A stretch of DNA of 29,799 nucleotides from a virus: positions 1 to 29,799 of IMG/VR virus record IMGVR_UViG_3300031784_000142, one strand, 5' to 3'. The translations under genes were made by a program, and so were the position numbers. How positions within the stretch are numbered: position 1 is the first letter of the stretch; every line of letters starts with the position of its first letter. The notes under the pieces were generated by a model. That model searched no databases, was not told the DNA's origin, and was given only the letters and a program-made list of their open reading frames with translations. Positions 9,142-18,988 of this stretch are shown one piece after another.

Positions 9142-12100
9142 TTATCCTCCAAAAGATGTTTGTCTTACTTTTGATACAAAAGTAGGTATATCAGATTTAA
9201 CATCAACTACTATTTTCTTATCAGTGCTAGATGCCATTACTTCTGTTAATCTATTTATAGCAGCTATAACAGCTGAGTTATCAACTACAGTTCCTCCACT
9301 AGTTGGAGAAGATTGAGGTTTATTAGTGGTTAAATAAACATTATCTTCTTTAATACCTTGCATTACTGGGGTTAATTGTCCTTTTTGGAATGTAGATACT
9401 ACTGGACCACCGTTAAGGTTAAGTTCACCGTCTTGGGCTTGAACAATGCCATCTTTTACTTTTTTAACACCACCAAAGAATGAATTTGATACTCCTTGGC
9501 CTCCACCTTCAACAAATGAAACTAACGATCCCATTAAACCACTAAATATAGCTCCTACACCTTCAGCTAATTTTTCAGCATCCATAGGATTTTTAGATAC
9601 AGATTCATGCAATTTAAGCATTTGATCTGATACTTTAACTATAGGAGTAACATCTCCCATGCTAGTTATTGTTTCAGCTAAAACCTTAAATGAATCACTT
9701 AAAGTAACAATAGCTTCAGCTAAAGATACAAATTTAGCTGGATCAAAATTTGCTATATTTGTAAGTTGAGTGTGAAGTTGAGGCAATAAATTAATTAAGT
9801 CTGAAATGACTTTATTTATTGTAACTTTATTTATATTATCCATTCCTTTTTTAAGGGAAGTCATGCTAGCAGGAAATTTATCTAATTTTAACTCAGCAAA
9901 TTTTTCAAATGATGTTAAATCTAAACCAGCAAAACTAGTGTTTAGATCAGTAAGGAGTTGTTTAAAACTAGTAAGATCCATCTTACCAAGTCCTGTTTTT
10001 TCATCAGTTGATGATAATTTTTTTACACCCTTAATAAAACCATCTACAGATTTGTCTAAATCAGAAAAGTTAGTTCCTAAAAATGATGTTATACCACTCA
10101 TATCAGAACCAAATGCTATATTTAATTCTGTAAATACATTTTGAAGATTTTCAAATGGATTTTTTGGAGTATTTGCATCTCCAAAATCATAACTTCCACC
10201 TAAAGCATTAAGTTCATCTAAAGCTTCTTTAAATTTACCAATTTTAGCTTTAATATCTCCTAATTCCATTTTAGCAAAGTTACTTAGATTTTCAAATACT
10301 TTTGAATCTCCTTGAAAAGCTTCACTTAATTTTTCAATAGGTTCTTTTAAATTAACTATATTATTATAATCACCTTCTTTTACTGTACTAGCTACTGTGT
10401 TAAGAGCATCTACACCATTTTTAAAATTAGTAGCGGCATTTACTAAATTAGATTTAGCTAACTCAGCAAATTTAAGAATATTCTCCATTTGTAAGCTACC
10501 TATAGCATTATCAAATGCTTGAAAAGAGGTAACTACAGGTTGAAGTTGCTCAGAAGTGACATTAATGCTTAATTTAGCAAAATGTTCAATTCCTGCTTTT
10601 AAATTATCTCCAGCCCCTACTAAATTTCCTTTAGATAACTCAGCAAATTTAATTATGTTATCTAAACCCGCAGCTGTAAAAGATGTAGAAAGAATTCTAA
10701 ATGCTGTTTTGATTTTTTCTGTATTCTCTTCTGAGATGTCAAAGGTCATGTTACCTAAGGTCTCAATAGCTGTTTTAAGTTTAGTAGCAGCTTCTTCTAA
10801 ACCACCTTTAGATAATTCAGCAAATTTAACTATATTGTCTATACCTAAACTTCCAAAAACTTGAGCTAATTTATGGAATGATTTTCGAGTAGCATCTAAC
10901 TTATCACCGTCTATAACTAACCCTCCAAGCTGTTTTGTAAACTCATCAATTCCTAATTTAAGAGTAGTAACAGCTGATACTAAACCAACTTTAGCAATTT
11001 GACCAAATTCTGTTAATTGGCTAAAATCTAATTCACCAAGTACATCTTCAAATTCATCAGCTATAAGCTCTATACTAGCTAATGAGGCTATAACAGCTTC
11101 ATTTGACTTACCATTAATTTTGATTTTCTCCATCTCGGACATGCCTCTTGCTAAATTGCGAACAGCTCCTACTATACTAACATTAGCTAGTTCAGAAAAT
11201 TGGAGAAGAGCATCTATATCTAATTCATCTATAGCATCTTCTACTTCATCAAAAACATCTTCTAATTGATCAAAATATTCAGCTAATTTTGATGAGAACC
11301 CAGTTATCATGCTTTTATCTAAAGCTTCACCTTTTAAATCTAAAGTAGCTAATTCTTGTATTCCTGCTACTAAATTTTGGGCGGCGCCAGCTAAACTAGC
11401 ACCAGCTAACTCACTAAAAGCTAAAAGTTCATCTATATCTAATTCATCAAAAGCATCTTCTATTTCTTCAAAAATATCCTCTAATTTATCAAAATCAGCA
11501 TCTGCTAAATTAGTGGTTAAAGAAGTAATGCCTTTATTTAACTCTACTCCTAAAGTTTCTAATTTTCCTCCACCAGCAACTTTTATTAAAGCATCTAATC
11601 CTCCAGCTACAACATACAGAGCACCCCCCATAGCTACTAAAGCAGCTACACCCGCTAGAAAAACTGCAGCTCCAATACCAGAAGCCATAGCTGCTCCTAA
11701 TCCTAATACTGCTCCTGTTAATAATACTAAAGCACCAGCAGCTATACCTAAATCTTCTGCTTTAACAGTAGCAAATTTATTCATAGCATCAGCCATAATC
11801 CATAGTGATCCAGCCATTATTACCATAGCAGCTGATGCTACTAACACATCACCTTTTCCTAAAAGTTTACTAAGAGCAAAAACAGCACCTCCTAAAGCTA
11901 ATAAAGCAACTGTTCCTTTTCCAATATCTTCCCAATCAACTAAAGCAAACTCTTGGAATGCTTTAGCTGCTATATATAATGATCCAGCTATTAAAACTAA
12001 AGCAGCAGATGCTTTTAGTAAACCTCCAGCTGCTTTTCCCATTGTTGAACCAAATTTTGATAATTTACCACCTGCTTTATCAGCTCCTTCTGGGACAGGG

Positions 12101-15027
12101 ACAGCTCCAGGAGCTGCTCCTCCGGCTGCGGCCATTCCGCTCCCAGCTGCTCCCGCTGCTCCTTTAGCTCCAGCAGTGACAGATGAGGCTTTACTTCCTA
12201 ATCCTTCTCCAGCTGCTTGTCGAGCTAAAACCATTTTTCGCTTATCAGCAAAACTAGTTGCTCCAGCAACTCCACCTGTGACTCCTGTTGTAGCGCCCGC
12301 AGCTCCAGCGGCTTTACCTCCTTTTCCAAAAAATCCTTTGATTTTATCCATTATCCCACCACCTTCACCTTTTCCTCCTCCAGGTATTCCATCAGCTGAT
12401 CTAATCCACATAGCATTCACGCGGCTACCGCCTGGGGCTCCTAACACAGCACTTTTAAGACTTCTAGCGGCAGTTAAAGCTTTAAAAGCTACAAATGTTA
12501 TAGCTATTTCTTTTAAATGGTCTGTAATAAAGCCAAAAAGTTTTGTTACACCTTTAGCTAAGGTCTCAATAAATGATTTTATTTCTTCTTTGTTTTCATT
12601 TATTTTTTTAAGAACACCCGCTACTCCTCCAGCTAAAGCTTTAATCAATGTTCCTACTGTAGGAGCTATTTCTTGAATAATACTAGCTAAATATTTTACT
12701 ATAGGTATAACATCTTTTTTAATAACAGGTCCTAATGATTTGATTAAGGCAAATAAAGTCTTACCAGCACCACCTGCTACTTCAGTTAGCATTTTAGCTA
12801 AGTCTAATATAGCAGGCATAATATCGTTTTTAAGGACATCAGACATTGCTCCTGCGCTATCAGGTGAGAAGAAAGCTGTAATTGCTTTACCTAACTCAAC
12901 AAACACAGGTCTCATGCCGTTTATAGCAGTCATAAACATTTTTATGTTTGCTGGGCTGAATACTGCTTTAAATAATGGCCATAATCTTGTAGCCATATAA
13001 TCTCTAAAATCTTCTAAAGCACGAGACATAGCTTCAGCTCGTTTAGAAGCAGCTAACTGGTTAGATATGTCAGCTTTTGTCATTCTCTTAGCTGCTTCTT
13101 CTCTGCTAATATTATGTTTATCCATTAACCCTTGTAGGGTTTTTTCAATATCAATTCTATCAGCTCCAAATTTATTGACTAACAGCTGTTGAGATCTAGC
13201 TTCAAGCAATTTATCTTTACTTATACCTAAAGTTTTAGCTAATGCTTCTTGATTAAGAACATTACCTTCAATAGCAGCTCCTTGAGATTGTAATATTTTA
13301 TCTAATTCTTTAGCCGCTGCGACTGTGTCTCCTCTTAAAGCAGCTTGTTGATAAGCATCAATATTAATTTCTCTGCCGGTTAAAGCTTGATACTCTAATT
13401 GATTTTGAATAGAAGATTCAAAATCTAATGTTTGCTCAGCAGCGCTAGCTATTTCATCTAAAGTCATATTTAGTTTAGTAGCTTGATAAGCGGCTTCAGC
13501 TAATGCTTTAGGATTTTGTTTTAAATTAAATGTTACAGCGGCACTAGCTTTAAGAGCTGTTTGTTCTATTAATCTTTGACTAACAGATGTTTTATATTTA
13601 CTATTTAATAGTGCTCCTTGAACTTTAATATTTTCTAAAACTTCTTTAGAACTTTTATTTTGTGTTATACCTAATCTCTCAAGTTTACCTGTTTCCTCAG
13701 CTGAATATCCTAGCCAATATGATAAGTCATGAGCGTCTTTTACAGATTTGGTCATTTGAGAAGCAAATAAACCTGTACCATCTGTTATAGCTTTAAGAGC
13801 AGGGCCTGCTTCAGCTACTCTCATAAAAGGATCAGCTGCTGCTGCAGCATTTAAACCATTTCTTATAGCATTTACTTGTCCACCAACTGCACTAAAGTTC
13901 TGAGCAGCAAATTGACCTGCTTTAGCATATTTTTCAAACACAGCAGCAAATTGATCTGCCATGCCCCATAGATTTTTAACAAAACCTACTACAGAACTAA
14001 CACCTCCTTTTAATAATGAGAAACCTTTTTTAATTAAACCAACACCAGCTGATACAGCTTTAGCTGCTAGTCCAGCCATAACTAAAGGATCAGTTAGGTT
14101 TTTCATTATAGACCCACCTAAAGAACCTATACCAGCTTTTAAAATTTTAAATTGACCTACTAATCCTGCTGATTTTGTGCCTCCTTTAGTAACTTGGTGA
14201 GCTACTTCTTTCATTTTTTCTTTAGCTTCATCCAAACCCATTTGGTCTGCTAATGATCCTAAACCAGCTTTGTTTAAAGCCTTACCTATGCCATCTATAG
14301 CTGCTCCGCTTAAACCAAGAGCTTTTTCAAGATTTTTAGCTTTTTGAGTTTCTTCATCTATAGTTTTAAGTAAACCTTTATAAAGTTCATTTTGATTTTC
14401 TAGAATTGAAGCATTTTCTTTTAAAAGACCTTGGGTTTTACGTAAAAGTTCACCTTGTTTTTCTTCTTTTTCATATATAGCATCTATAGTTTTTTGATAT
14501 TTATCAATTAAACTTTGTGATGCATGTTGGTTTTTTAATCTTTCAAGATGTTTTTCTTTAGCTTTTTTTAAATTTTCAAGATTTTCTAATTCTGATTTTT
14601 GTTCTTTTTCTTTATCTTTTAATAATTCTTGAGCATTCTCAAGTTCTAATCTAGCAAGTTCAGCTTTTTTCTTTTTATTAGCGAGCTCTTTAGAAGAAAG
14701 TTCACTTATACCTTGTTGATGAGACTGAATTTGGCTGGCTAAAGATGATAAATTATTATAAATCTTATTAGATTCTCTTAAACCAATATTAGCATTACTA
14801 ATTTCTTGAACAATTCTTTTAAATCCTACAGCAGCGTAAGATATTTCATCATTTTGTTCTTTAAATTCTTTATTAAGTTTTTCAAAAATAAACTTAATAT
14901 TATCAGCACTTTTTTCTAAATCTTGTAAATTAGTTGTGTCTACATTTTGTTTAAGAGCTTTAGAGAGTCTTTCTATCTCTAAAAGCATTTTCCTTAAATT
15001 ATCTGCTTCCTGTGGGGTTAGTGCCAT
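9142..15027 (-). CDS. Tape measure protein (tail length ruler)
   Basis: 1961 aa, the largest gene in the window and located between the chaperone frames and baseplate genes, as expected. Tape measure proteins set tail length and leave the tube at infection. Seen in order: strong charged coiled coil (about 110-240); Ala/Gly-rich segments with amphipathic helices (about 300-460), including GLIKKGFSLLKGG; helical region to about 880; a Gly/Ala/Pro linker (about 900-995); a cluster of hydrophobic, membrane-like helices (about 1000-1146) such as ASAALVLIAGSLYIAAKAF and VFLAGVAALVAMGGALYVVA; then about nine or ten degenerate repeats of roughly 60 residues with a FAELSKGNLV-type core (about 1165-1785); and a C-terminal segment VQAQDGELNLNGGPVV common near tape measure ends. 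No peptidase or muramidase motif was found. T4 gp29 is only 590 aa, so this tail should be much longer. Confidence 0.93.
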   Translation of the reverse strand: MALTPQEADNLRKMLLEIERLSKALKQNVDTTNLQDLEKSADNIKFIFEKLNKEFKEQNDEISYAAVGFKRIVQEISNANIGLRESNKIYNNLSSLASQIQSHQQGISELSSKELANKKKKAELARLELENAQELLKDKEKEQKSELENLENLKKAKEKHLERLKNQHASQSLIDKYQKTIDAIYEKEEKQGELLRKTQGLLKENASILENQNELYKGLLKTIDEETQKAKNLEKALGLSGAAIDGIGKALNKAGLGSLADQMGLDEAKEKMKEVAHQVTKGGTKSAGLVGQFKILKAGIGSLGGSIMKNLTDPLVMAGLAAKAVSAGVGLIKKGFSLLKGGVSSVVGFVKNLWGMADQFAAVFEKYAKAGQFAAQNFSAVGGQVNAIRNGLNAAAAADPFMRVAEAGPALKAITDGTGLFASQMTKSVKDAHDLSYWLGYSAEETGKLERLGITQNKSSKEVLENIKVQGALLNSKYKTSVSQRLIEQTALKASAAVTFNLKQNPKALAEAAYQATKLNMTLDEIASAAEQTLDFESSIQNQLEYQALTGREINIDAYQQAALRGDTVAAAKELDKILQSQGAAIEGNVLNQEALAKTLGISKDKLLEARSQQLLVNKFGADRIDIEKTLQGLMDKHNISREEAAKRMTKADISNQLAASKRAEAMSRALEDFRDYMATRLWPLFKAVFSPANIKMFMTAINGMRPVFVELGKAITAFFSPDSAGAMSDVLKNDIMPAILDLAKMLTEVAGGAGKTLFALIKSLGPVIKKDVIPIVKYLASIIQEIAPTVGTLIKALAGGVAGVLKKINENKEEIKSFIETLAKGVTKLFGFITDHLKEIAITFVAFKALTAARSLKSAVLGAPGGSRVNAMWIRSADGIPGGGKGEGGGIMDKIKGFFGKGGKAAGAAGATTGVTGGVAGATSFADKRKMVLARQAAGEGLGSKASSVTAGAKGAAGAAGSGMAAAGGAAPGAVPVPEGADKAGGKLSKFGSTMGKAAGGLLKASAALVLIAGSLYIAAKAFQEFALVDWEDIGKGTVALLALGGAVFALSKLLGKGDVLVASAAMVIMAGSLWIMADAMNKFATVKAEDLGIAAGALVLLTGAVLGLGAAMASGIGAAVFLAGVAALVAMGGALYVVAGGLDALIKVAGGGKLETLGVELNKGITSLTTNLADADFDKLEDIFEEIEDAFDELDIDELLAFSELAGASLAGAAQNLVAGIQELATLDLKGEALDKSMITGFSSKLAEYFDQLEDVFDEVEDAIDELDIDALLQFSELANVSIVGAVRNLARGMSEMEKIKINGKSNEAVIASLASIELIADEFEDVLGELDFSQLTEFGQIAKVGLVSAVTTLKLGIDEFTKQLGGLVIDGDKLDATRKSFHKLAQVFGSLGIDNIVKFAELSKGGLEEAATKLKTAIETLGNMTFDISEENTEKIKTAFRILSTSFTAAGLDNIIKFAELSKGNLVGAGDNLKAGIEHFAKLSINVTSEQLQPVVTSFQAFDNAIGSLQMENILKFAELAKSNLVNAATNFKNGVDALNTVASTVKEGDYNNIVNLKEPIEKLSEAFQGDSKVFENLSNFAKMELGDIKAKIGKFKEALDELNALGGSYDFGDANTPKNPFENLQNVFTELNIAFGSDMSGITSFLGTNFSDLDKSVDGFIKGVKKLSSTDEKTGLGKMDLTSFKQLLTDLNTSFAGLDLTSFEKFAELKLDKFPASMTSLKKGMDNINKVTINKVISDLINLLPQLHTQLTNIANFDPAKFVSLAEAIVTLSDSFKVLAETITSMGDVTPIVKVSDQMLKLHESVSKNPMDAEKLAEGVGAIFSGLMGSLVSFVEGGGQGVSNSFFGGVKKVKDGIVQAQDGELNLNGGPVVSTFQKGQLTPVMQGIKEDNVYLTTNKPQSSPTSGGTVVDNSAVIAAINRLTEVMASSTDKKIVVDVKSDIPTFVSKVRQTSFGG
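9680..11530 (-). repeat. Degenerate ~60-residue (about 180-bp) tandem repeats inside the tape measure gene
   Basis: The core IIKFAELSKGNLV...A...LK.GI recurs. Its DNA trace (plus-strand a[ag][ct]tcagcaaattt or close variants) is visible near 9890, 10270, 10460, 10640, 10820, 11000, 11190 and 11408, a spacing of about 180-220 bp apart from the first interval, which spans two units. Three middle units (near 10460, 10640, 10820) are the most alike; outer units are more diverged. The two units nearest the membrane-like helices are Asp/Glu-rich (DELDIDELLAFSELAG and similar). The pattern suggests growth of the ruler by tandem duplication. Confidence 0.75.
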
Positions 15028-15049: not shown

Positions 15050-15059
15050 TTATAAATAT
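15050..15059 (-). promoter_or_regulatory. ATATTTATNA motif, candidate late promoter (tape measure)
   Basis: Coding-strand ATATTTATAA, 22 nt before the tape measure ATG; its first base overlaps the stop codon of the upstream 99-aa frame. It is the only copy in the 31-bp gap. Confidence 0.45.
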
Positions 15060-15358
15060 TAATACTTTGGAGCTTTATTGGCTAATTTACCTTTAAAATG
15101 GTCTGGGAGTTGAATTTTACCATCTTTAATAGCGTTAGTTTGAGAAGCTAAATCACCATTTTTATTACCATTTTTCTCTTCATAATGTTCTTTCATTTTA
15201 TGGAAAGTGAATTTACGAAGCCAAATGGGCATGTTATAGACTGTCTCCCAGTCATAACCGCCCTGGCCATGAAAAACTATCTCATGAATTTGAGTAAATA
15301 AATTAACTCGGAATTGTTTGGCTATCTCAGAGGTCAGGCCAAAAAAAGCTAAGTCCAA
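15059..15358 (-). CDS. Tail assembly chaperone, downstream frame (probably expressed by frameshift)
   Basis: 99-codon frame from a TTG at 15358; there is no ATG before about residue 43, although the chain reads as coding from the beginning. Core: QIHEIVFHGQGGYDWETVYN followed by MPIWLRKFTFHKMKEHYEEK, a pattern typical of the small protein just upstream of the tape measure in T4-like phages. The frame overlaps the 244-aa gene by 32 bp, and a run of seven T (15341-15347) lies in the overlap, five codons before the 244-aa stop. Position (tube, then this pair, then tape measure) matches the G/GT chaperone genes of other tailed phages, where the second frame is made only as a fusion by ribosomal frameshift. 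Independent TTG initiation is possible but looks weak. Confidence 0.75.
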   Translation of the reverse strand: MDLAFFGLTSEIAKQFRVNLFTQIHEIVFHGQGGYDWETVYNMPIWLRKFTFHKMKEHYEEKNGNKNGDLASQTNAIKDGKIQLPDHFKGKLANKAPKY

Positions 15359-16061
15359 TGGGAATGTTAACTTTTGAGTCGCTCCCTTCGGGAAAAAAGG
15401 TCAGATCAACATCTGGTTGTACCTCCTTTATATGCTCTCTAAAAGCTTTAGAATCACGAGCTAAAAAAGCGTTATCAACAAAATGTCTAATGTCTTTAGC
15501 TTCTTCATTACCATCAACAGAAGTAATCATATACTTTAAACGAGTTGACAATTCTGGTGATGCGTTTTTATTAATTTTCTTTATACCTTCTAATTCAGCA
15601 TTAATTTTTTTCTCATCATACCCTGTTAAAAGTTTGTAAGTAATTTTAGTACCAGTTGAAGGAAGAGTATAAGAAAATTCATTCACTCCTTTTTTAAATA
15701 AAGATTCATCTAAAGACTTATTTTCAATAAGTGATAAATCAATAGTTTGTTCTTCACCATTATAAGTAAATGTATACTCATTACCATAGCCTAAAATACG
15801 AGCTGCTACTAATAAAGCATTTTTATCACCTACAATTAAATCTTCATATTTTACACCTGGAGTGATGATTAAAGATTTAATTAACTCATCTAATACTGTT
15901 CCTTTTTGAATGTAAGATTGATTAGTCAAAATGTCTTCTTCTTTAGCGGTCATATATTTCATTTCAATTTTACCACTTGATAGAGGACTTTCTTCTGGGT
16001 AAACTAAACCTTTAGAGGGTAGTTCAATAACTTCTGTTGGGATACTTAATTTGTTTTCCAT
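15327..16061 (-). CDS. T4 gp26-like baseplate/tail assembly protein (upstream chaperone frame)
   Basis: 244 aa, TGA stop at 15329-15327. Begins LSIPTEVIELPSKGLVYPEE, a hallmark start of the T4 baseplate (gp26-type) family, followed by IEMKYMTAKEEDILTNQSYI, a helical core with ELIKSLIITPGVKYEDLIVG, and a beta-rich middle. In T4, gp26 helps assemble the baseplate hub. In this place, directly between tube and tape measure, the protein should act as the tail assembly chaperone that keeps the tape measure soluble. Preceded by a terminator and one ATATTTATNA motif, so it starts its own transcript. The last codons contain TTT TTT TGG, where a +1 (or -2) shift would join residue 240 to the 99-aa frame, giving a fusion of about 333 aa. 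Confidence 0.83.
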   Translation of the reverse strand: MENKLSIPTEVIELPSKGLVYPEESPLSSGKIEMKYMTAKEEDILTNQSYIQKGTVLDELIKSLIITPGVKYEDLIVGDKNALLVAARILGYGNEYTFTYNGEEQTIDLSLIENKSLDESLFKKGVNEFSYTLPSTGTKITYKLLTGYDEKKINAELEGIKKINKNASPELSTRLKYMITSVDGNEEAKDIRHFVDNAFLARDSKAFREHIKEVQPDVDLTFFPEGSDSKVNIPIGLSFFWPDL

Positions 16062-16165: not shown

Positions 16166-16654
16166 TTAGTAGTTTAACACGGCGTAGTCAATTGCTAATG
16201 TCATTGTGATGTTTATAGCAGTATTTTCAGTATCCCAGTTATATTCACCGAAGTTAGCGTCTTTTACAAATGCGCCTTTAAGTACCCATTCTGCTACTAC
16301 ATCACCCACAGGGCCGAGAGCATTGATAGTTAAATCTTTCTTATAGAAGTCAGAGTATCCATCTCTACCTGTAACAGATTCGTGTGATAAACGAACCCAT
16401 TCCATGATTACTTGAGCACCAGAAGGTGAGATTGGATCGTGAAGTGTCATAGTAACATCACCCCAAACTGTTTTACCTTTAACTTTACGTAAAACGTTAA
16501 TATGGTTTAATACTACTTCACCTTGAGTTAAACTTACAGCACTCACACCCTTGATCATCCAAGTAGGCACTCCATCCATATATAGGATAAATCGGTTAGC
16601 CTGTTTTGGTTCGAATGCTGTGAAAAACATTTCGTTATTATTTATAATTGCCAT
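16166..16654 (-). CDS. 19: Tail tube protein (gp19-like)
   Basis: 162 aa (T4 gp19 is 163 aa). It forms the inner tube through which DNA passes, assembling on the baseplate and inside the sheath. Seen: KQANRFILYMDGVPTWMIKG near the start, then VNHI..LRKVKGKTVWGDVTMTLHDP spread over residues 48-75, and a C-terminal INITMTLAIDYAVLNY strand, matching the gp19/T6SS-tube family order of beta strands ending in 'v.laiDya'. It follows the sheath gene, as in T4, and is bounded by an intrinsic terminator downstream and an ATATTTATNA motif upstream, so it can be transcribed as a single, strongly expressed unit. Length and strand pattern agree with the family; no anomaly noticed. Confidence 0.88.
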   Translation of the reverse strand: MAIINNNEMFFTAFEPKQANRFILYMDGVPTWMIKGVSAVSLTQGEVVLNHINVLRKVKGKTVWGDVTMTLHDPISPSGAQVIMEWVRLSHESVTGRDGYSDFYKKDLTINALGPVGDVVAEWVLKGAFVKDANFGEYNWDTENTAINITMTLAIDYAVLNY

Positions 16655-16704: not shown

Positions 16705-18423
16705 TTATTCAAAAGTAGCACCAGTTGGAGTAAGTGTGAAGTTCAAGTAAATAAATTCAGCTGTCTTTGTTGGTTGTAAGTAAATTTGACCTACTAACTC
16801 GTTTCTGTCAATTACAGCAGCGTTATTAATAGAATCATCCATTACAACTTTGAACGCGTACAAACCTTGTCTTTGTTGAACTGATTCAAGATATGGGTTA
16901 ACATTAGCTAAGAATGAGTTTCTTGTAGAAGCATTGTTCTGTTGGAATACTAATCCATTAGCAATTTGTCCGATATATCCTTTAAGCGCAATCATTAAAC
17001 GACGAACATTGATACGGTCAAGAGCAGAAGCTCTAGTTTGTAAGGTTTTGTTACCATATACTACAACACCTTGACCAGGGAATGTAGCTAATGGATTAAC
17101 TTTACCAACATATAAACTGTCGCGAGTTGATTGTGATAATTTAGAAGCAGCTCTGATTACAGTGCTTAATCCACCTCTGTTAATACCAGCTGGAGCAAAC
17201 CATGGCTCAGCTACTCTATCGTTATAAGCATAAACACCTGGAATCATTACTGATGCAGGTACATTCACATACTGACCAGTAGCTGGGTCAAGTGTTTGGA
17301 CCCATGGGTAATAAGCAGCACCATATGATGAATCAATAGTATTTGCTGTAGCAACTACATCAGCAGCTGAAGCTGTATAAGCTCCTAAATCCATAACATA
17401 CACACTATCACCTCTATTTTCAGTGTTTGTAAGAGCAACACTCATTGTAGTGTCATGATCTTCATAGTTCAAACCAGGAGTTACTAACACATTAAATTGA
17501 TAATCATTAGCACTAGCTAACAAACTAATTGAAGCTGTGTAGCAATCAGCATTAACACCTTGCATATCAATAGGTGTAATATTTTCATACCACTTAGCAT
17601 CAACATTTACTTTACCAGTACCGCCGTTAAATGAACCAGTTGTGTTAGCACCTGTAGCTATAGGAATAGAAGATGTATAAGCATTAACTGGAGAGCCACC
17701 TACTAAGTATTGGGGGGTTGGGCTAACTACTTGTTTAACTCTTACATATCTTGATTTATTAGGATAAGTACCTGTAATTTGTAAGGTATCTTCACCATCT
17801 AAATTTACCTGAGTGAATGAGTAATCACCAATTCTTCTAGCTACATAATTCTCAGAAAGTGGATCCATTGATAATCCAGTATATGTTTCTAGAATAGCTG
17901 GGTTTCTATCATCATCATCACCTCTACGGATATACAAGTTAAATGTACCTGTATTAATGTTTGGAGACACAATTTGGAAACGAACGCTATGAATTGAAGC
18001 TGAGCCTAAGGTATTAAATGCATTGTTAGCATTAACTGAAGTTCCAGTGTTCATATTAGCACCTTCAGAAATAGTAGCTAAAGTAAATGCTACTTTAGAG
18101 CCACTACCAGCGATTGAAGCTGAAGCAGGAGAGTAAGCACCTGATACAACACGAGTTACTAATAATGTCTCACCTCCATTTTGGAAGTAATTATAAGCCA
18201 TTATAGAGGTAAAATACGAGTATGAACCTGAGTTTGCTATAACTTCTACATCACCAAAACGACTAATAAAGTCAGTATAAGATGTAACAGTTACAGGAAT
18301 ACCAACAGGGCCTTTAACAGTTGGACCAATGATAGCAGCACCAATTTGAGGTGGTTGTTCTGCTATAAATGAAGTGTCTATCTCTCTTGATAAAACACCG
18401 GGGGATAATAAAATTTCTGCCAT
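16705..18423 (-). CDS. 18: Tail sheath protein (gp18-like)
   Basis: 572 aa (T4 gp18 is 659 aa). The sheath contracts to drive the tube through the cell envelope. N-terminal hallmark: LLSPGVLSREIDTSF (about 5-19), followed by IGAAIIGPTVKGPVGIPVTV and a FISRFGD segment, then YNYFQNGGETLLVTRV. Residues about 120-330 are a variable insert domain, probably exposed on the sheath surface. The C-terminal part has the family core: VAEPWFAPAGINRGGLS, VNPLATFPGQGVVVYGNKTL, ALDRINVRRLMIALKGYI, then a late ELVGQIYLQPTKTAEFIYLN strand pair that makes the inter-subunit mesh. It is preceded by 68 bp with one ATATTTATNA motif. Clear member of the family. Confidence 0.96.
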   Translation of the reverse strand: MAEILLSPGVLSREIDTSFIAEQPPQIGAAIIGPTVKGPVGIPVTVTSYTDFISRFGDVEVIANSGSYSYFTSIMAYNYFQNGGETLLVTRVVSGAYSPASASIAGSGSKVAFTLATISEGANMNTGTSVNANNAFNTLGSASIHSVRFQIVSPNINTGTFNLYIRRGDDDDRNPAILETYTGLSMDPLSENYVARRIGDYSFTQVNLDGEDTLQITGTYPNKSRYVRVKQVVSPTPQYLVGGSPVNAYTSSIPIATGANTTGSFNGGTGKVNVDAKWYENITPIDMQGVNADCYTASISLLASANDYQFNVLVTPGLNYEDHDTTMSVALTNTENRGDSVYVMDLGAYTASAADVVATANTIDSSYGAAYYPWVQTLDPATGQYVNVPASVMIPGVYAYNDRVAEPWFAPAGINRGGLSTVIRAASKLSQSTRDSLYVGKVNPLATFPGQGVVVYGNKTLQTRASALDRINVRRLMIALKGYIGQIANGLVFQQNNASTRNSFLANVNPYLESVQQRQGLYAFKVVMDDSINNAAVIDRNELVGQIYLQPTKTAEFIYLNFTLTPTGATFE

Positions 18424-18491: not shown

Positions 18492-18740
18492 CTAAGTGCT
18501 CATAAACTCTCCTTTTTCCAAATTAATAGTACCATCACCGTATTTTGATTGTAATTGTTTTCCTAAAACATCTTCTTTTTGTTTTAGTTTTTCATAGTCA
18601 AGTTTTAGTTTTTGTTTAGTTAATTCTAATTCTTGAAATTGAATTTCAATAGTACCAAACTTATCAATTATAGAATATCTTTCTTGTTGAACTGCTTTTA
18701 ATTGTGTAATCTCTTCTTGGGTTAAAACTTTTGTTTCCAT
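18492..18740 (-). CDS. Small coiled-coil protein of unknown function
   Basis: 82 aa, almost entirely predicted helix: LTQEEITQLKAVQQERYSII, then a charged heptad-rich stretch FQELELTKQKLKLDYEKLKQ, ending in a short Gly-containing tail. Leu at regular heptad spacing supports a coiled coil, probably dimeric or trimeric. No Cys and no signal or membrane segment. Lies between the fibre cluster and the sheath gene, with its own ATATTTATNA motif only 11 nt before the ATG. A virion scaffold, fibre-attachment or assembly factor would fit, but I cannot identify it. Coding status is supported by the tight gene packing and the upstream motif. Confidence 0.7.
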   Translation of the reverse strand: METKVLTQEEITQLKAVQQERYSIIDKFGTIEIQFQELELTKQKLKLDYEKLKQKEDVLGKQLQSKYGDGTINLEKGEFMST

Positions 18741-18772: not shown

Positions 18773-18988
18773 TTACAAACCTAAAGCTACTATAAATGAA
18801 GTCATATCATGGTATAGTATTCCATCTACAGGTAAATCCATTTGTAATAATACTACTTCGTGATCTAATTCAATACCCACTTGCAAATAATTATGAATTT
18901 CATATCCTAAACCTGATGTAAATTCAGTTTTGGTGAAGTATCTATTTTTACCTTGAAAATTTATTCCATTTTCTATTGTTGTAATCAT
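18773..18988 (-). CDS. Small unidentified protein
   Basis: 71 aa, 4 bp after the 502-aa fibre gene, so it shares that transcript. Sequence features: ENGINFQGKNRYFTKTEFTS, an amphipathic EIHNYLQVGIELDHEVVLLQ stretch and a hydrophobic end (SFIVALGL). It reads as a small mixed alpha/beta protein without signal peptide or membrane helix. Being translated right behind a fibre gene, it might be a fibre-assembly chaperone, as small genes beside fibres often are; there is no sequence motif to prove it. The frame has no competing long frame here. Confidence 0.62.
   Translation of the reverse strand: MITTIENGINFQGKNRYFTKTEFTSGLGYEIHNYLQVGIELDHEVVLLQMDLPVDGILYHDMTSFIVALGL

Follow-up and report, generated by a model that had tools for sequence, protein, structure and literature searches.

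Between the tail tube and tape measure genes of the viral record IMGVR_UViG_3300031784_000142, two reading frames overlap, and the second does not reach an ATG until about residue 42. The window, i.e. the whole 29,799-nt stretch that was analysed, carries all the features described below on its minus strand. Frame A (15327..16061) encodes 244 residues and ends with AGC TTT TTT TGG CCT GAC CTC TGA, in which a run of seven T residues (15341..15347; TTT at 15347-15345 and TTT at 15344-15342, then TGG) lies five codons before the stop codon (TGA, 15327..15329). Frame B is +1 relative to frame A and is open across the run; counted from a TTG (15356..15358) it comprises 99 residues (15059-15358), and counted from the GGC after the run it comprises 93 (15059..15340). 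The pair lies between the upstream gene of a gp19-like tail tube protein (16166..16654; phrog_4542, E 4.6e-21; PF06841, E 2e-5) and the downstream gene of a 1961-residue tape measure protein (9142..15027; phrog_4372, E 3.3e-7), near the tail sheath gene (16705..18423; phrog_23, E 2.2e-73). The phage is contractile-tailed. The original prediction described a tail chaperone pair joined on the T run by a +1 or -2 frameshift; the coordinates on which it rests were all correct. Our reading, to which we assign a probability of about 0.9, is that a tail assembly chaperone gene of the G/GT type undergoes programmed +1 ribosomal frameshifting, with a predicted 333-residue product (15062..16061) for which no protein or reporter data are available. 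The +1 reading reproduces the fusion length of ~333 residues that had been expected.

Profile comparisons place frame A in the T4 gp26/gp51 family (PF12322, phrog_150), with matches to PF12322 (24.6 bits, cut-off 24.5), to phrog_150 (E 1.9e-10) and, using hhalign, to the gp26 group (E 1.7e-12). The phrog_150 match of the 333-residue fusion extends to residue 255, i.e. across the junction. Frames A and B were folded separately and not as the fusion. Frame A was predicted by AF2 with a pLDDT of 93.9, and frame B was predicted as helices with moderate confidence (pLDDT 75). The top PDB matches of the frame A model in VIA are weak, namely YqbN (Z 5.5) and the HK97 tail assembly chaperone (Z 4.7), followed by ORF19 of a Vibrio PICI-like element (Z 3.8) before a drop to Z 2.3; all three fall in the N-terminal 95 residues. 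Foldseek returned no PDB match to frame A with E <= 0.001, and searching PDB sequences with a profile of the fusion gave no significant hit. The matches of frame A in BFVD include baseplate hub and gp26-like proteins. The likeness of the modelled fold to known tail assembly chaperones is suggestive only.

Homologues of the junction were collected from viral contigs, GTDB contigs and isolates, giving 303 loci with 242 unique junctions. Frame B is in the +1 frame relative to frame A in every one of the 242, which excludes chance, and the +1 frame stays open for at least 150 nt beyond the frame A stop in 241. The exception (L012) has a frame B stop 79 nt after the frame A stop and reflects either an assembly error or a real loss. 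The T run or a close variant of it is present at the site in all 242 junctions, and an in-frame T7 occurs at the site in 224 of them, compared with 4 of 61,720 codons elsewhere in the same genes. Overlap, T run and frame relation are thus conserved, as the original prediction needed them to be, and no homologue found in this lineage fulfilled its refuting condition of separated genes and a proper ATG. The 192 junctions fetched by frame A queries alone gave the same result, so that the picture is not an artefact of searching with junction peptides. Queries with LR756508 and with a mixed gp26 alignment retrieved no loci. Homopolymers are error-prone, and a sequencing error or a frameshift mutation in a single-gene chaperone could in principle mimic the arrangement. 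However, the same arrangement recurs in the 242 unique junctions, from many samples and also from isolate genomes, and this lineage showed no homologue with a single uninterrupted frame; an error of this kind can be practically dismissed.

The slip site is a 9-mer, TTTTTTTGG in 220 of the 242 unique junctions. The other 9-mers are TTTCTTTGG (9 junctions), CTTTTTTGG (3), TTTCTTTAC (2), TTTTTTTTC (2), TTTTTTTAC (2) and four more with one junction each in distant phages. Distant isolates retain the site, as CTT TGG in immuto and as T7-GG in Mel-JY01 and RM378. The A-site codon is UGG in 232 junctions and another sense codon in the rest. The frame A stop lies 5 to 12 codons 3' of the first slip codon in the relatives. 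Immediately 3' of the run in the window, per-position conservation marks a near-invariant GGCCTGAC (15333..15340), which is dual-coded as W-P-D in frame A and G-L-T in frame B; CCTGAC follows the T run in 166 of 235 junctions, and CCT in nearly all of the 235. No downstream RNA structure stands out as a stimulator (z of -0.91, compared with -1.12 in a control region). Slippage of the RNA polymerase on T7, giving mRNAs with one base fewer or two more, would also place frame B in register, and most junctions do carry a seven-base homopolymer. Perfect runs of seven are short for efficient polymerase slippage. At 14 of the 242 sites the longest T run is only three, yet the frame relation is kept, which argues against polymerase slippage and makes it very improbable.

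The direction of the proposed shift was assessed from the re-pairing of the P-site tRNA. Perfect +1 re-pairing on one of the two slip codons is possible in 242 of 242 junctions, whereas perfect -2 re-pairing is possible in 228, and +1 is preferred on this basis. The original alternative of "+1 or -2" can thereby be narrowed: the site and the frame relation are borne out, and +1 is the favoured direction. A -2 ribosomal frameshift on T7, in the style of phage Mu, would yield a 334-residue fusion with one extra Phe. It would need the first TTT of the run, and this codon is indeed conserved beyond codon usage: in a less redundant set, TTT rather than the synonymous TTC was found in 199 of 201 Phe cases, compared with a background of 0.806 (P 2e-16, a value that makes the evidence look too strong, because related sequences were treated as independent). 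The same bias could reflect slipping at codon 1 or an effect in the E site, and the slipping codon is not settled. The 14 sites that do not allow perfect -2 re-pairing (TTTCTTTGG, TTTCTTTAC, TTCTTTCGG, TTCTTTCGT and TTTCTATTC) all fit +1, and TTTCTTTGG resembles the CUU_U slip of prfB. A -2 shift is accordingly improbable for the family, but it is not excluded at the window's own site.

Frame B could instead be an ordinary overlapping gene that starts from the TTG at 15358 or from another non-ATG codon. The window and many of its close relatives do have such a TTG 5' of the run; it is not conserved. Between the slip site and the stop that precedes it, 62 of the 242 junctions contain no ATG, GTG or TTG, and 51 of these also lack CTG, ATT, ATC and ATA. 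Stops are frequent in frame B 5' of the run, in many junctions just before the site, and this part is little selected as protein (dN/dS 0.73). From the frame A stop to a conserved YNMP methionine, frame B has a dN/dS of 0.14, compared with 0.92 and 1.30 for the other two frames. Purifying selection acts on frame B in the part that lacks an ATG. Translation of frame B, in many relatives without a start codon of its own, is thus inferred from sequence, with no protein evidence on the point. A separate start would also leave the conservation of T7 unexplained and is, like polymerase slippage, very unlikely. The four rivals considered, an own TTG start, sequencing error, polymerase slippage and -2 shifting, are all disfavoured by the junction tests. 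Several points count against the +1 frameshift: protein and reporter data are lacking, T7 in the window also fits -2, the TTG precedes the site there, no classical stimulator has been identified, and the PDB fold matches are weak. A real and conserved +1 signal is nevertheless highly probable, and the claim of a chaperone pair between tube and tape measure survived the sequence tests, with no experimental proof of the fusion.

Existing annotation treats frame B unevenly. In Flavobacterium phage immuto (NC_055915), frame B is annotated from an internal ATG (L162:3354-3464), and among immuto, Listeria LIS04 (L166) and GXN1 (L165) it either starts internally, as in immuto, or goes unannotated. 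Ten of 44 members of the frame B family weakly match PF20546 (DUF6760; best E 0.00075), a possible link to other short tail proteins.

Frame B was related to gp51 through a second group of phages. In Syn9, P-SSM2, S-PM2, HTVC008M, KVP40, phiM12, Cr30 and PhiW-14, the last part of gp26 is overlapped, in the -1 frame, by a segment that matches phrog_634. The frame B profile matched this gp51-like segment with an hhalign probability of 96.4 (E 1e-9, score 48.3), compared with a best score of 17.0 from 60 column shuffles, and a larger frame B profile gave E 2.9e-9. Direct hhalign comparison of the frame B profile with the single T4 gp51 sequence gave nothing; the link to T4 gp51 runs via the -1 group (E 1.3e-4; phrog_634). 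By these profile comparisons frame B is homologous to the C-terminal segment of gp51. In the cyanophages, pelagiphage, KVP40, phiM12, Cr30 and PhiW-14, the two segments found here also overlap, at the equivalent position and with a T-rich slip site. However, their second frame is -1 and their site (L349-L356) is canonical U_UUU_UUY, occurring as U_UUU_UUC or U_UUU_UUU no more than two codons ahead of the gp26 stop. All 57 unique junctions of cyanophage type, among which the KVP40-type ones are counted, have the heptamer T_TTT_TTC. In 50 of them the stop is followed 2 nt later by an ATG, and TAATG or TGATG stop-start overlaps occur in KVP40, phiM12, Cr30 and PhiW-14, so that re-initiation is a live alternative in the -1 group. 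In Syn9 an ATG of this kind is absent, and the annotated gp51 begins within the conserved segment. Where annotation was read in the -1 group, it gives separate genes and no frameshift.

T4 itself has two separate genes. T4 gp26 and gp51 both match full-length PF12322 (E 8.8e-64 and 3.9e-52) and match each other by blastp (E 2e-6); by this similarity they are paralogues (L168:5803-7229). T4 gp51 carries an extra C-terminal segment (phrog_634, E 1.2e-23), and the -1 fusion of P-SSM2 (residues 76-285) aligns with it (residues 64-246) colinearly across the junction (E 2e-8). Frame A is a homologue of gp26 and of the gp51 N-terminal part, and frame B of the gp51-like C-terminal segment. In the window these parts are one gene with a probable frameshift, whereas in T4 they are two divergent full genes without a slip site. 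T4 gp26 ends with GLKEFFELL, at the point where the unshifted product ends, and has lost the slip site (TTC TTT GAG). Homologues cover at least 80% of T4 gp51 in 1,334 phage records. An ancestor of T4 may have swapped frameshifting for gene duplication, an inference drawn without a tree to establish which event came first. It is probable, at a lower level of confidence than the +1 shift itself, that the T4 superfamily makes one two-product chaperone in three ways: by +1 shifting in Bacteroidota, Microcystis, Rhodothermus and some Firmicutes phages, by -1 shifting in cyanophages, KVP40, rhizobial phages and pelagiphages, and by duplication in T4. The direction would have switched while the products were kept, and gp51 would be a GT-type tape measure chaperone. 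T4 gp51 looks like the GT-type long form, with gp26 as the G form in this scheme. The evolutionary account is well supported by sequence and has no protein evidence behind it.

According to the proposed mechanism, most ribosomes would read frame A to the TGA and produce the 244-residue gp26-like, G-like chaperone. A minority would pause with UUU in the P site of UUU UUU UGG, the next Trp codon being presumably slow. The peptidyl-tRNA(Phe) would re-pair one base downstream on UUU, and reading would resume with GGC CUG ACC in frame B to give the GT-like fusion with its T-like extension. The actual shift of the ribosome, the Phe codon on which it occurs, the product ratio and the chaperone function are all inferred. 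If the two products act as lambda gpG/gpGT do, both would coat the tape measure protein, and the domain from frame B would bring in tube subunits or the hub. The lambda and similar systems likewise place a pair of overlapping frames between the genes for the major tail protein and for the tape measure, with a slippery site near the end of the first frame and a short extension fused (PMC5009743). The present case differs in using +1 on UUU UUU UGG instead of the usual -1, and in belonging to the T4 gp26/gp51 family and not to lambda G/T. In the CUU_UGA +1 site of prfB (release factor 2), the P-site YUU likewise slips forward onto UUU, and variants here use CUU U. However, the A-site codon here is a sense codon, mostly UGG, and not a stop, and there is no autoregulatory logic.

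Tail chaperones are known with -1, -2 and +1 shifts (Atkins et al. 2016, PMC5009743). The G-T system of the haloarchaeal myovirus HSTV-2, cited there as very likely +1, is another +1 case in a myovirus tail chaperone, but has an archaeal host; homology and slip sites were not compared. The expectation that a +1 or -2 site next to a gp26-like protein would be unusual therefore holds only in part: +1 shifting in tail chaperones has precedents (PMC5009743), and what is unusual is its occurrence in the gp26/gp51 family of the T4 superfamily and the fact that direction differs between lineages. No earlier report of frameshifting in gp26/gp51 was found in the open literature; priority is uncertain since subscription papers were outside the search. 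Atkins et al. 2016 (PMC5009743) describe wide conservation of G-T frameshifting, with T4 as the exception. The present results suggest that this exception is only apparent, with relatives carrying the signals and T4 having split the products into paralogues. T4 gp26 and gp51 are listed as hub assembly chaperones, and gp51 as essential and of unknown function (PMC3004832). Their role becomes directly testable. The results also point to mis-annotation of gp51-like genes across many phage genomes, and they provide a large natural alignment for studying how +1 sites work and how frameshift direction changes.

The closest isolate is Flavobacterium phage immuto (64% identity), and relatives are present in several Flavobacteriales MAGs, from which the host is inferred to be probably a member of the Bacteroidota. 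Two small ORFs (18492-18740 and 18773-18988) lie upstream of the sheath gene; a family scan of 18492-18740 gave no significant match. The second half of the tape measure protein (9142-15027) seems to carry several repeats of a motif like FAELSKGNLVGAGDNLKAGIEHF.
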